Below, one piece after another: positions 9,054-33,191 of a stretch of 40,249 nt of DNA. The stretch's first letter is position 1. Each line of letters begins with the position of its first letter. Location of the stretch: assembly GCA_002688355.1 (NCBI GenBank), contig NZCT01000023.1, forward strand, positions 1 to 40,249, written 5' to 3'. Origin of the DNA: an archaeon. Its GTDB lineage: Archaea > Nanobdellota > Nanobdellia > SCGC-AAA011-G17 > GW2011-AR20. The notes beneath the pieces are model-generated. The model was not told the origin of the DNA. It saw only the letters and a list, made by a program, of their open reading frames with translations, and did no database searches. Made by a program: the position numbers and the translations under genes.

Positions 9054-9215
9054 CAATTTTGAAATCTTTTCTAATTTTTATATTTAATTGACAGAAGTTA
9101 TATTTAAATGTTATTAAACAGTAAAATATATTTTTCTCCACATATATGGATGATATTCTTGCTTGTTAAAGCGTAATTAAAAAGATTTTTATACTTTCAA
9201 ACTTTCTAAAATTTT

Positions 9216-10535
9216 ATGAAAAGTTTAAATTTTGGTGATCACATCGAAATAACAACAAAGAATCAGTCTTTAAAAGGAATCTACATAAATTCTCCAAAAA
9301 AAGATGTAATAATTCTAAAAAAGAACTCAGGTTATAATATGGGAGTAAATAAAAAAGATATTAAGAAAATAAAGGTTGTAAAAAAAGCTTCAAAAGCCAA
9401 AAAAGTAAAAGGTAAAGGTTCAATAAAAACTAACAAAAAGCTACCAAATATTACTATACTAAAAATTGGCGGAACAATAGTTAGTAAATTAGATTATTCA
9501 ACTGGAGCTGTCTCAGCGAAAATTACAGCAGAAGAACTTTTAGAAAATATACCTGAACTTAGAAAAATAGCTAATATCAATTACAAAGATATTGCATCCA
9601 TAATGTCGGAATCTATGAGGTTCTCTCATTACAATTTAATTGCAAAAGAAATACAAAAAGAAATTAAGAAAAATAAAAACTTAAAAGGAATAATAATTCC
9701 TCACGGAACAGATACATTACATTACACCTCAAGTGCGTTATCATTTATGTTAGAAAATATTAACATTCCAATAATTCTTGTTGGAAGTCAAAGATCCTCT
9801 GATCGTGGAAGCTCAGATTCTTTCATTAATTTAACTTGTGCAGCTCAATTTATTGCAAAAACAGATTTTAAAGGAGTAGCAATTTGTATGCACGAAGATA
9901 TCTCAGATGATACGTGTTTAATTCTTCCAGGAACTAAAACAAATAAAATACACACTTCAAGAAGAGACGCATTTAAATCAATTAACACACAGCCAATAGC
10001 AAGAGTAGATTACTTCAAGAATAAAATAGATTTCTTAACTAAAAATTATAACAAGTTTTATGACGAATCTAAAAAAATAAATACAAAATACTTTAAAGAT
10101 AATTTAAAAGTAGGAATCCTAAAATCACATTCAAATATTCATCCTGAAAATATTTCTGCTTTTAAAAATTATAAGGGATTAATCTTAGAAGGAACAGGTT
10201 TAGGACATTTTCCTACAAAATCTTTTGATCCTTTATCTAAAGTTAATGAAAAGAATAGAAAAGAAATTGAACGTTTAATTAAAAAAAATTGTGTAGTAAT
10301 CTTAACAAGCCAATGTACTTATGGTCGTGTTAATATGAACATCTATACACCAGGAAGAGAGTTAATAGAACTTGGAATTGTTCCAGGAAAAGATATGACA
10401 ACAGAGACAGCATTTATAAAATTAGCATTTTTATTAAGCAATTACAAAAAAGAACAAGTTAAATCTTTATTTAAAGAAAATTTAAGAGGAGAGATTAGTG
10501 AAAGAATATTACCTCATGAATTCGTTGATTATTAA
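9216..10535 (+). CDS. gatD: Glutamyl-tRNA(Gln) amidotransferase subunit D
   Basis: N-terminal small domain plus asparaginase domain (ILKIGGTIVSKLDYSTGAV, PHGTDTLHYTSSALSFM). Confidence 0.94.
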   Translation: MKSLNFGDHIEITTKNQSLKGIYINSPKKDVIILKKNSGYNMGVNKKDIKKIKVVKKASKAKKVKGKGSIKTNKKLPNITILKIGGTIVSKLDYSTGAVSAKITAEELLENIPELRKIANINYKDIASIMSESMRFSHYNLIAKEIQKEIKKNKNLKGIIIPHGTDTLHYTSSALSFMLENINIPIILVGSQRSSDRGSSDSFINLTCAAQFIAKTDFKGVAICMHEDISDDTCLILPGTKTNKIHTSRRDAFKSINTQPIARVDYFKNKIDFLTKNYNKFYDESKKINTKYFKDNLKVGILKSHSNIHPENISAFKNYKGLILEGTGLGHFPTKSFDPLSKVNEKNRKEIERLIKKNCVVILTSQCTYGRVNMNIYTPGRELIELGIVPGKDMTTETAFIKLAFLLSNYKKEQVKSLFKENLRGEISERILPHEFVDY

Positions 10536-10547
10536 TTCTTTAGAAAA

Positions 10548-10603
10548 CTATATAAATGGACAAATGTTCATTATATTGGACAATTATATAAAAAAATGGA
10601 CAA
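10548..10603 (+). promoter_or_regulatory. TATA-like element plus three TGGACAA direct repeats at 20-bp period
   Basis: ACTATATAAA followed by TGGACAA at 10557, 10577 and 10597; the last overlaps the start codon region at 10596. Confidence 0.65.
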
Positions 10604-11126
10604 TATAATAGAATATTTCATAAAAGAAACAGAGAGAGAATTCCATGTTAGAGAACTAGCGAAATTAACAAGAAAATCACCTACAACAATATCAAAATAT
10701 CTAAGTGAGTTAAAAAAAGAAGATCTATTAACTTCAAGGAAGAAATTTAATCATCTATTATTCAAAGCTAATACAGAAAATACCAATTTTAAAGATTTAA
10801 AACTTTATTATAATATAAAAAAATTAAGGGAATCTAAATTAATAAATTATTTAATAGAAAAACTTAACCACCCAGAAGCAATAATTTTATTTGGGTCATA
10901 TCAAAAAGCAGAAAATACAGTTAACAGTGATATTGATATACTAATAGTAACATCTTCTAAAAAACCATTAAGCCTAGAAAATTTTGAGAAAATATTAGGA
11001 CATAAAATACAATTATTTTTACATTCAAATAATGATATAGATAAAATGAAGACACAAAATAAAGAGTTATTAAATAATATCCTAAATGGAACTATACTGT
11101 ATGGATATTTGGAGATTTTCAAATGA
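10596..11126 (+). CDS. wHTH-fused minimal nucleotidyltransferase (MNT/MntA-like)
   Basis: N-terminal HTH (FHVRELAKLTRKSPTTISKYLSELKKEDLL) and GSYQKAENTVNSDIDI, matching the GSx10DxD motif. Confidence 0.88.
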   Translation: MDNIIEYFIKETEREFHVRELAKLTRKSPTTISKYLSELKKEDLLTSRKKFNHLLFKANTENTNFKDLKLYYNIKKLRESKLINYLIEKLNHPEAIILFGSYQKAENTVNSDIDILIVTSSKKPLSLENFEKILGHKIQLFLHSNNDIDKMKTQNKELLNNILNGTILYGYLEIFK

Positions 11127-11545
11127 ACTTTAAAAATTTTATTGAAAAAGGACAAGTAAGAAAAGCTTCTAAAGATATACAATTAGCAAAATCATTAATA
11201 GATACAGCAGATAGTGATCTAATTTTTTTCAAAAAAATAGAAATAAATAAAATTTCTGCAAGAAAAGTAATGACAAATTACTATGATATTCTAAGAAGTA
11301 TACTAGAAGCAACAGCAGCTCTTGAAGGCTATAAAATCTACTCACATGAAGCATTTACATATTTCTTAATAGAGAAAAATGAAACATTAATCTCACAAAA
11401 ATTTGATCGATTTAGAAAAATAAGAAATGGAATAAATTACTATGGGAAAAACATATCTCCAGAAGAAACAAAAGAAAATATAGTAGAAATAGTTAAGTTA
11501 ATTAATGTTTTAAAAAAGAGATATTTAATTAAAAATGAATTATAA
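11123..11545 (+). CDS. HEPN-domain protein
   Basis: Helical ORF directly after MNT (4-bp overlap); FRKIRNGINYYG sits at the expected HEPN RN...H/Y position. Confidence 0.78.
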   Translation: MNFKNFIEKGQVRKASKDIQLAKSLIDTADSDLIFFKKIEINKISARKVMTNYYDILRSILEATAALEGYKIYSHEAFTYFLIEKNETLISQKFDRFRKIRNGINYYGKNISPEETKENIVEIVKLINVLKKRYLIKNEL

Positions 11546-12965
11546 AAAACTCAATCTAAAAATTGGAATAGAAGTTCACAGACAATTAAATACTGGAAAA
11601 TTATTTTGCCGTTGCCCATCATTATTAACAGAAGACAAACCAGATTTTACATTTAAAAGAAAACTAAGACCTGTTATTTCCGAGTTAGGAGAAATAGATA
11701 AAACAGCATTATATGAATCAACAAAGAAGAAATATGGTATTTATGAAGGTCACTATAAAAATTCTTGTGAAGTAGAACTAGATGAATCCCCAGTTTATGA
11801 TATAAATATGGATGCATTAAATACAATGATACAAGTTTCTAAAATGTTAAATGCTTCTACAATTAACACAATAGAAATTATGAGAAAACAAGTTCTAGAT
11901 TACTCTAACACAACAGGTTTTCAACGAACAGCATTAATCTCAACAAACGGAAATATCAAAACAGAAGATAACAACATAAAAATAGATACAATAATTCTAG
12001 AAGAAGATGCAGCTAGAAAAACTAAAGAAACAAAAGAGTCTATTTCCTTTAAATTAGATAGACTAGGTATACCATTAATAGAAATTGCAACAGCTCCAGA
12101 TATTAAAACTCCTGAAGAGGCAAAAGAAATTGCAGAACATCTTGGAATGGTTTTAAAATCAACTGGAAAGTTCCGATCTGGTTTAGGAACAATTAGACAA
12201 GATTTAAATCTATCAATTAAAAATGGTTCAAGAGTAGAACTAAAAGGTGTACAAGATCTAAAAAATATTCCAAAAATAATTGATATTGAAATAGAAAGAC
12301 AATTATCCATACTTAAAGAAGGAAAAGAGGTAGAAGAAGGTGTAAGAAGAATAGACAAAGACCTAACAAGTACTTACTTAAGACCTCTTCCAGGAAAATC
12401 TAGAATATATTCTGAAACAGATCATCCTCTTATATCAATTACTGATGAACACATTAAAAAAATAAAAATACCAGAATTAATTTCAGATCTCTCTTTAGCA
12501 TTAGAAAAAAAATACAAACTAAGTAAAGAATTAGCAAAGGAAATAATTAAAGAAAATAAAAAAGAATTCTTTGAAACATTAACAAATAAACTAAAAAATT
12601 TAACTCCAGGAATAATTGCTCATACAATCATAGACACACCAAAAGAGATAGAATCTAAATTTAACATTACAACAGAAAAATTAAATGAGAATGTTTTTTA
12701 CAAAATCTTAGAAGCATTAAACAATGAAAAAATTAGTAAAAATTCAGTAATAGAAATTTTAGTCGATTATATTAACACAGAAAAACTAGATTTAAGTAAA
12801 TATAAAACAGTTAACACAAAAGATCTAGAAAAGGAAATAAAGGATTTAATTCAAAAAAACCCTGAGTTAAACATCGGAGCATTAATGGGTATTTTAATGT
12901 CTAAACACAAAGGCAAAGTTGACGGAAAGTTAGCAGCACAATTAATCAATAAATATAAAAAATAG
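11535..12965 (+). CDS. gatE: Glutamyl-tRNA(Gln) amidotransferase subunit E, short form
   Basis: LKIGIEVHRQLNTGKLFCRCPS, YSNTTGFQRTALISTNG, LRPLPGKSRIYSETDHP; 476 aa. Confidence 0.95.
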   Translation: MNYKKLNLKIGIEVHRQLNTGKLFCRCPSLLTEDKPDFTFKRKLRPVISELGEIDKTALYESTKKKYGIYEGHYKNSCEVELDESPVYDINMDALNTMIQVSKMLNASTINTIEIMRKQVLDYSNTTGFQRTALISTNGNIKTEDNNIKIDTIILEEDAARKTKETKESISFKLDRLGIPLIEIATAPDIKTPEEAKEIAEHLGMVLKSTGKFRSGLGTIRQDLNLSIKNGSRVELKGVQDLKNIPKIIDIEIERQLSILKEGKEVEEGVRRIDKDLTSTYLRPLPGKSRIYSETDHPLISITDEHIKKIKIPELISDLSLALEKKYKLSKELAKEIIKENKKEFFETLTNKLKNLTPGIIAHTIIDTPKEIESKFNITTEKLNENVFYKILEALNNEKISKNSVIEILVDYINTEKLDLSKYKTVNTKDLEKEIKDLIQKNPELNIGALMGILMSKHKGKVDGKLAAQLINKYKK

Positions 12966-12970
12966 GTGAA

Positions 12971-13828
12971 ATGGACTCTAAAAAAATAATAGAATTAGTT
13001 ATAATATTTGCAATTTTATTAGTTTCTGCTAGAGTGGCAAATGAATTCGCAGCTCAAAGTGTTGATGATTCCTTAGAACGTAACGAAGATGGAGTAATAA
13101 TTGGTGCTGAAACTTTTTACATAGATAATAACTCTACAAAATCAGTTTTATTATTACATGGTTTTGGTGCAAATCCTTTCAGTTTTCAAGAGATGTCCAC
13201 TTTCTTCTCAGACTTAGGTTACAATGTTTACAGTCCTCGTTTACCCGGACATGGAACTTCTGGTTTTGATTTAGAAAAATATTCTTGGAAAGATTGGGAA
13301 GCTGAAAGTGAAAGAGCATATCTTTCCCTAAGAGAAAATTCAGAAGAAGTATATGTTCTAGGATACTCAATGGGAGGAGATCTAGCACTAAATTTAGCAA
13401 AAAAGTATGATATTGATAAATTAGTAACAATGAATGCTCCTTATCATTTATTAACCAAATTAAAATACGCAATACCAATAGCATATATATCGCAAAGTTA
13501 TACAATAGATATTTTATTCAAAGGAACAGATAGAGAGAAAAAAAGTAAAAAATATAAAATATATCCAGTTTTACCTATAAAAAGTTTTAGTGATCTTCTA
13601 GAGTTAGTTACAAATACAAAAATAGATTTAGAAAGCATAGAAGAAGATATACTAATTATCCAATCAAAACAAGATACATTAGTAGATCCAGAAAGTGCAA
13701 ACACAATATACAGAAGAGTAAGTTCTAAAAATAAAAGATTAGTTTTCTTAGAATATTCAGATCATATAGAAATAGAAGAATATGATAAAGAAGTTACTTC
13801 TCAAGCTTTAAAAGAACATTTAAAATAA
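12971..13828 (+). CDS. Alpha/beta hydrolase (esterase/monoacylglycerol lipase-like) with N-terminal hydrophobic segment
   Basis: VLLLHGFGANPFSF, GYSMGGDLAL nucleophile elbow, C-terminal SDHIE. Confidence 0.9.
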   Translation: MDSKKIIELVIIFAILLVSARVANEFAAQSVDDSLERNEDGVIIGAETFYIDNNSTKSVLLLHGFGANPFSFQEMSTFFSDLGYNVYSPRLPGHGTSGFDLEKYSWKDWEAESERAYLSLRENSEEVYVLGYSMGGDLALNLAKKYDIDKLVTMNAPYHLLTKLKYAIPIAYISQSYTIDILFKGTDREKKSKKYKIYPVLPIKSFSDLLELVTNTKIDLESIEEDILIIQSKQDTLVDPESANTIYRRVSSKNKRLVFLEYSDHIEIEEYDKEVTSQALKEHLK

Positions 13829-33108: not shown

Positions 33109-33109
33109 A

Positions 33110-33191
33110 GCCTTGGCTGAGAATTGAACTCAAGACCTTCACATTTTTGTAAAATACCAATGTGATGCTCTACCTACTAAGCTACCAAGGC
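33110..33191 (-). tRNA. tRNA-Thr(GGT) with ~10-nt intron at 37/38
   Basis: GCCTTGG/CCAAGGC acceptor, D-arm GCTTAGTAGGTAGAGC, anticodon stem TCACA/TGTGA, loop TTGGTA|TTTTACAAAA|A, T-arm TTGAG-TTCAATT-CTCAG, discriminator T. Confidence 0.85.

Follow-up and report, generated by a model that had tools for sequence, protein, structure and literature searches.

gatD and gatE encode the two subunits of one obligate heterodimer, the archaeal Glu-tRNA(Gln) amidotransferase. In the archaeal DNA analysed here, a stretch of 40,249 nucleotides called the window below, they are separated by two small genes resembling a toxin-antitoxin (TA) pair of the MNT/HEPN kind, the second of which overlaps the start of gatE. 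This raises the question of whether the pair has been placed there to control gatE and, with it, Gln-tRNA supply, as a sequence-only reading had proposed, or whether it is a mobile cassette that has inserted and is tolerated.

Gene order and reading frames

The genes gatD, HTH-MNT, HEPN and gatE are consecutive and run in the same direction (Table 1). A recheck of the reading frames and profile searches reproduced all ORFs and coordinates of the sequence-only reading, including the position of the MNT/HEPN pair between gatD and gatE, and both Gat subunits scored above the NCBIfam equivalog cut-offs. HEPN begins on the MNT stop codon (ATGA, an overlap of 4 nt), and its own stop codon (11543-11545) lies 11 nt inside gatE, for which 11535 is the earliest possible start following a stop. 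A Shine-Dalgarno core is present before HEPN, and none was found before gatE.

The GC content of the two inserted genes (22.6% for MNT and 22.5% for HEPN, versus 26.7% for gatD and gatE) was considered as a sign of foreign origin, but the gap is not decisive. No Rfam match at gathering scores was detected for a structured RNA at the gatD/gatE junction. Elsewhere in the window, ARAGORN reported a tRNA-like gene with an unassignable two-base anticodon (33109-33191, minus strand).

Table 1. Features of the gatD-gatE region (positions in the window)
Feature	Position	Strand	Remarks
gatD promoter, TATA box	9184..9195	+	-32 from ATG; score 9.84; 0.05% of coding windows as high
gatD, Glu-tRNA(Gln) amidotransferase subunit D	9216..10535	+	NF003217 472 bits, TIGR02153 444 bits, both above cut-off
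Cassette TATA box ACTATATAAATG	10547..10558	+	-49 from MNT ATG; score 7.06, equalled by 1% of coding windows; conserved in the module subclade
Operator palindrome 1, ATGGACAA/ATGTTCAT	10556..10571		abuts TATA box; conserved in 13 modules
Operator site 2, TTGGACAATTAT	10576..10587		20 nt beyond palindrome 1
Third half-site ATGGACAA	10596-10603		includes MNT start codon
HTH-MNT protein, 176 aa	10596..11126	+	winged HTH at about residues 4-58, MNT at about 80-170; GS-x10-D-x-D at residues 100-114 (10893-10937)
HEPN protein, 140 aa	11123..11545	+	RN-GIN-Y-Y-G at residues 101-108 (within 11414-11446); His75 at 11345-11347
Overlap of HEPN 3' end and gatE 5' end, 11 nt	11535..11545	+	ORF coordinates
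gatE, 476 aa	11535..12965	+	NF003107 499 bits; without the AspRS-like insertion of GatE proteins of about 610-620 aa
Alpha/beta hydrolase gene	12971..13828	+	conserved gatE neighbour within the family; profile match and neighbourhood comparison

The HTH-MNT and HEPN proteins

The 176-residue protein combines a winged HTH with a Polbeta/MNT domain. It matches PF18765 (E 1.4e-11), exceeds the Pfam cut-off for PF01022, and aligns over nearly its full length with the PADLOC profile PDC-M05A (E 2e-21); its AlphaFold model (pLDDT 94) resembles the MNT antitoxin 8xeo and winged HTH folds. The 140-residue protein showed no Pfam match at E 0.01 and no NCBIfam match, and a modest, near full-length match to PDC-M05B (E 1.6e-7). 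Its AlphaFold model (pLDDT 95.7) has the four-helix HEPN fold, with 7ae8 and 7ae2, the HEPN toxins of HEPN/MNT systems, as the best solved matches at a Foldseek probability of 0.99, but with an E value of only 0.056. A viral source of the HEPN protein was also considered, and the fold search gave no convincing match.

Residue conservation was counted over 129 modules of this HTH-MNT/HEPN family. In the GSX10DXD motif of MNT, both Asp residues and the Gly are present in all 129 proteins and the Ser in 125, and the third-carboxylate position, as placed by our own alignment rather than by a structure, is occupied by Gln, Ser, Asn or His in most proteins and by Asp or Glu in six. The HEPN proteins have the motif RNGINYYG (RN-x3-Y-Y-G) in place of the RX4H RNase motif, with the His position of the latter being Tyr in 128 proteins, Met in one and never His. 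Arg101 and Tyr54 are invariant, followed by Tyr106 and Gly108 (128 each), His75 (127) and Asn102 (124); His75 lies between the model helices 46-67 and 88-107. The near-invariance of the Arg, Asn, Tyr and His residues suggests strong selection on a site in HEPN. Since the catalytic His of the proven HepT toxins is missing and the third carboxylate of MNT is mostly non-acidic, the HEPN RNase activity or the MNT activity, either one, could be altered or absent. A decaying insertion was ruled out, since the family-invariant residues are all present and both ORFs are full length.

Comparison with known systems

The module belongs to an already known kind, and its placement is unusual but not unique. 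PDC-M05 is a phage-defence candidate from PADLOC, composed of an NTase and a HEPN protein and enriched in archaea (PMC12988326). The adjacent M05A and M05B matches, which cover most of both proteins, the identical gene order and the archaeal spread place the window's pair with PDC-M05, but the M05B match is modest, the pair sits inside gatDE, and the antiviral role of PDC-M05 is itself only a candidate one.

HEPN/MNT pairs without RX4H form Class II, a class without biochemistry (Yao et al. 2020, PMC7641770). The window's pair shares with it the missing RX4H, a conserved tyrosine and a GSX10DXD-type MNT. However, Class II is defined by PF05168, whereas the window's HEPN has no Pfam match, and its MNT bears an N-terminal winged HTH. 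The HepT/MntA type VII TA systems (Class I; PDB 5yep, 7bxo, 7ae2) have the same HEPN and MNT folds, the GSX10DXD motif, the MNT gene in first position and overlapping genes. In contrast to these systems, the window's HEPN lacks RX4HXY, its MNT is fused to an HTH, and the pair stays below the NCBIfam cut-offs (MntA 31.2 bits against a cut-off of 60; no HepT match). AF0298-like HEPN-T and AbiV HEPN proteins are among the families that lost the His of RX4-6H and kept a second His in an insert between helices 2 and 3 (PMC3710099). The window's HEPN likewise keeps the Arg and has a second conserved His (His75) N-terminal to the motif, a resemblance that concerns motif layout only.

The window's genome also encodes a HepT/MntA-type pair (G000:C17, L001), whose canonical, paralogous HepT reaches 106.7 bits, over the NCBIfam cut-off, and at least two more HTH-MNT/HEPN modules (G000:C24:61075-61434 and G000:C24:25112-25504).

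Spread of the module family

With the window's HEPN as query, relatives were found in 69 of the 103 genomes searched within the order, with up to 11 per genome, some carrying stop codons or present as broken copies. In a scan of 84,980 prokaryote genomes, the loci found were almost all labelled Woesearchaeota, Pacearchaeota, Nanoarchaeota, Aenigmatarchaeota or DPANN. The closest HEPN proteins (58-70% identical) occur in other families or records beside unrelated genes, one of them a DNA-ligase-like ORF (named by eye), whereas in the nearest sampled relative, genome G006, the best match is 36% identical and located elsewhere in the genome. This is the pattern of a mobile module, and the window's pair is a member of a DPANN-wide mobile PDC-M05-like family. 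At one locus (L133, G033:C104), a family MNT and HEPN are convergent instead of tandem, with overlapping 3' ends.

The gatD/gatE junction across the order

The neighbourhood survey of gatDE called for in the sequence-only reading was carried out on 89 gatE loci of the order and revealed a labile junction. With contiguity taken as gatD at most 100 nt upstream, 17 loci were contiguous, 31 were interrupted by 0.2-4.8 kb of cargo, 28 lacked gatD over 4.9 kb or more of upstream sequence, and 13 were located at a contig edge. G006 has the order ftsZ, gatD, 61 nt, gatE, hydrolase and ABC1 with no module, and its gatE, gatD and ftsZ are 63%, 71% and 91% identical to those of the window. With this block otherwise syntenic, the insertion of a TA-type module between gatD and gatE is well founded; the 61-nt spacer could not be aligned, so the insertion end points are known only roughly. 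The window comes from a MAG, in which assembly errors are possible, and both flanks of the insertion are syntenic. The sequence-only reading had named contiguous relatives combined with a decaying insertion as evidence against itself: the former were found, in G006 and in the lability of the junction, but the insertion is intact.

The cargo in these junctions is diverse, comprising (by eye) small DUF504-like proteins, Lrp-type regulators, transporters, metabolic enzymes, a P-type ATPase and a LAGLIDADG-like ORF, and in several junctions it lies on the opposite strand. The DUF504-like protein of about 80 residues recurs between gatD and gatE (L041, L068, L102, L110, L116 and others), and in L116 (G027) the LAGLIDADG-like ORF of 381 residues overlaps gatE by 11 nt. 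G001, from the same family as the window's genome, has an MNT/HEPN pair together with the P-type ATPase between gatD and gatE; this pair matches the MntA and HepT profiles and carries an RX4HXY-type motif. MNT/HEPN pairs have reached this spot more than once. Modules also occur convergent with gatD in G003 of the same family (12 nt apart by ORF calls) and divergent from gatE in G072 of another family. By these comparisons, the window's module is a recent, intact insertion, and its placement is not conserved in relatives.

Other translation genes

In G008, a module splits pheS and pheT and overlaps pheT by 14 nt (L139/L305, 1-3393), and the two genes are contiguous in its congener G011. The pheS/pheT gap of G012 (L328) holds a VapBC-like pair (AbrB-like and PIN-like, by eye), cargo of 0.4-1.4 kb occupies this gap in several further genomes of the order, and the EF-1 alpha and uS10 genes of G064 have a module between them. 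Thus, the genes of obligate heterodimers (gatD/gatE, pheS/pheT) are unprotected from insertion in the archaea of this order. Two full-length PheT matches were found in the window's genome (G000:C28:5170-6651 and G000:C13:11832-13340, 62% and 56% identical to PheT of G008), which points to either a paralogue or a contaminating contig.

Background rates of neighbourhood and overlap

The order survey supplied 85 modules for an analysis of their surroundings, to which 60 more were added, and overlaps were compared between 51 module pairs and 511 ordinary co-directional pairs. The downstream gene is co-directional for 61% of modules versus 55% of ordinary genes (P 0.36), and overlaps occur in 27% versus 26% (P 0.87), so the co-directional neighbour and the 11-nt overlap can both be taken as ordinary. 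The overlap as a mark of targeted coupling is refuted by this comparison. Overlaps of 4-19 nt with gatE are also formed, in other genomes, by gatD itself or by unrelated ORFs inserted there (11 nt in L109 and L116, 4 nt in L056 and L106, 19 nt in L120), and a convergent gene faces the module in 33 of 85 cases. Between same-strand genes, modules are co-oriented with their neighbours 60:25 (P 1.9e-4; 38:15 in one sample and 22:10 in the other), which is the bias that purging of antisense insertions from operons would leave.

In the first sample, seven of the 51 co-directional downstream genes encode aminoacyl-tRNA synthetases or Gat subunits (gatE, pheT, gltX, cysS, thrS, asnS and gatB), and in the second none of 31 was assigned to aminoacyl-tRNA synthesis by eye. 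The second-sample downstream genes and the Ham1-, FtsJ-, TrmJ- and aIF2-beta-like names were read by eye. Without the index case, both samples give 6 of 81 (P 0.02 against an assumed 2.7%, which is our own estimate, for a partly post hoc category). A preference for aminoacyl-tRNA synthetase genes, suggestive in the first sample and absent in the second, is too weak to be retained.

Promoters and operators

A TATA model built from 313 upstream regions of this order showed a sharp peak at -32, the spacing of leaderless transcripts. It identified strong candidate boxes upstream of gatD and of the cassette (Table 1) and no promoter upstream of HEPN. The TATA-like GTTTTAAAAAAG at -28 of gatE, located inside HEPN, scored 4.28, with 6.8% of coding windows as high. 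Upstream of MNT, TATATAAATGGACAA.TGTCCATTAT.TTGGACAATTGT recurs in thirteen modules that belong to the same subclade and are inserted at unrelated sites, and over these modules conservation averages 1.17 bits per position at -60 to -1 versus 0.29 at -130 to -61. As this conserved block is preceded by 70 unconserved nucleotides, the cassette takes a promoter and a double palindromic operator along from site to site, and HTH-MNT presumably binds this operator. In agreement with a promoter of its own, MNT has a co-directional gene 25 nt or less upstream in just two of 95 modules, against 48% of ordinary co-directional pairs spaced by 30 nt or less.

No terminator-like site was detected between gatD and gatE in a scan that used bacterial criteria; a sigma-70 scan of the junction was uninformative, since the host is an archaeon. 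The strong module promoter, the weak gatE promoter and the missing terminator suggest that gatE probably depends on read-through, partly from the autoregulated promoter of the module. The weak promoter-like site inside HEPN could give gatE some independence.

The route to Gln-tRNA and the form of GatE

For ESSENTIALITY, no GlnRS above cut-off was found in the window's genome (97% complete), the best glnS match, at a GluRS-like gene, being 212 bits versus a cut-off of 426. An indirect route to Gln-tRNA is therefore required. The genome also encodes GatCAB on C11 (GatB at 440 bits over and GatA at 429 bits just under the cut-off). With no AsnRS above cut-off in this genome, GatCAB probably serves Asn-tRNA, and it could serve Gln-tRNA as well. 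Of the proposal that GatDE is the only route to Gln-tRNA, the lack of GlnRS therefore holds, but a sole route is not established, since GatCAB is encoded too.

GatE lacks an insertion of about 135 residues between positions 265 and 278, and its identity to full-length GatE is 45% and 37% on the two sides of the missing domain. The inserted domain is thought to help tRNA recognition. Most GatE proteins of the order are short, with about six genomes (for example G017, G024, G087, G091, G095 and G040) having open frames of about 590-620 residues, and this order-wide loss is a point worth attention.

Origin and role of the cassette

We consider it likely that a mobile, self-promoted HTH-MNT/HEPN cassette, probably of the TA or defence type, has recently inserted here and is tolerated in a labile junction. 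The entry into a syntenic block, the intactness of the cassette, its conserved promoter and operator, the lack of a terminator-like site and the overlap were read directly from the DNA. A cassette measuring about 1.0 kb, equipped with a TATA box and operators of its own, would have entered between gatD and gatE after the split from the nearest sampled relative. HTH-MNT may bind the TGGACA-nn-TGTCCA sites and repress its own promoter. Following the TA logic of MNT acting over HEPN (PMC7641770, PMC3710099), MNT would neutralise HEPN, probably by nucleotidylating the invariant tyrosine, Tyr106 or Tyr107. HEPN, when freed, would act on RNA as a defence or addiction effector, possibly through a site formed by Arg101 and Asn102 with His75 as an alternative to RX4H. 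Tolerance of the insertion would be due to the co-orientation of the cassette, to the promoter that it brings and to its lack of a terminator. gatE may now be the last gene of a merged operon, served by read-through from the gatD and cassette promoters. Since gatE is likely co-transcribed, autoregulation of the module may touch it, which looks incidental; the link to Gln-tRNA supply would be a by-product and not a selected circuit.

The opposite view, that the cassette gains from a place directly upstream of an essential translation gene, because its loss or loss of its control would cut gatE and Gln-tRNA, appears quite improbable to us. It draws on gatE, which starts inside HEPN, lacks a Shine-Dalgarno core and has a weak promoter of its own, on the seven translation genes in the first sample (about 1.4 expected at the 2.7% that we estimated), and on the three MNT/HEPN insertions into heterodimer pairs, two at gatD/gatE and one at pheS/pheT. 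However, the second sample has no such gene by eye, the combined count without the index case (P 0.02) concerns a category partly chosen post hoc, overlap and spacing are at background, many modules face a convergent gene, non-TA cargo occupies the same junctions, and the arrangement is not conserved in relatives. With contiguous genes in G006, a labile junction, overlaps at background and GatCAB also encoded, the coupling of gatE to the module that the sequence-only reading suggested is not supported as a designed feature. Alternatively, the module might be a neutral passenger functionally unconnected to gatE, which would be transcribed from its own promoter within HEPN. The -28 site, the strong promoters (scores 7-9) of unlinked gatE genes in many genomes, and the opposite-strand cargo in several junctions agree with this possibility. 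We regard it as somewhat unlikely, since the site is weak and falls in codons of the conserved VLKK/SLKN stretch of HEPN, where coding constraint could suffice, and the gatD and cassette promoters score clearly higher with no terminator between them and gatE.

The nature of the module can also be read differently, with no TA pair but a domesticated regulator formed by an HTH-NTase and an inactive HEPN as substrate-binding partner. The absence of RX4H from all 129 modules and the usually non-acidic third carboxylate would agree with this, and according to PMC7641770 a TA function of Class II HEPN/MNT pairs is undemonstrated. Nevertheless, we find it unlikely: the patchy, multi-copy and mobile spread with broken copies fits TA or defence better, toxicity persisted in HEPN proteins without the motif according to a genome-scale screen that PMC3710099 cites, and the HEPN site is under strong selection.

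The preferred reading, a tolerated mobile cassette, means that a candidate defence or TA cassette occupies an essential translation operon in a minimal DPANN genome, and it offers a testable account of such tolerance based on co-orientation, an own promoter with operator, and no terminator. The invariant R-N-x3-Y together with the alternative His marks a group of Class II HEPN proteins. It is highly doubtful, but conceivable, that DPANN cassettes gain stability when co-oriented inside essential aminoacyl-tRNA heterodimer pairs (gatD/gatE, pheS/pheT), with the downstream subunit placed on an autoregulated promoter so that loss or silencing of the cassette would harm tRNA charging. The order-wide survey is a caution against inferring regulatory coupling from adjacency.
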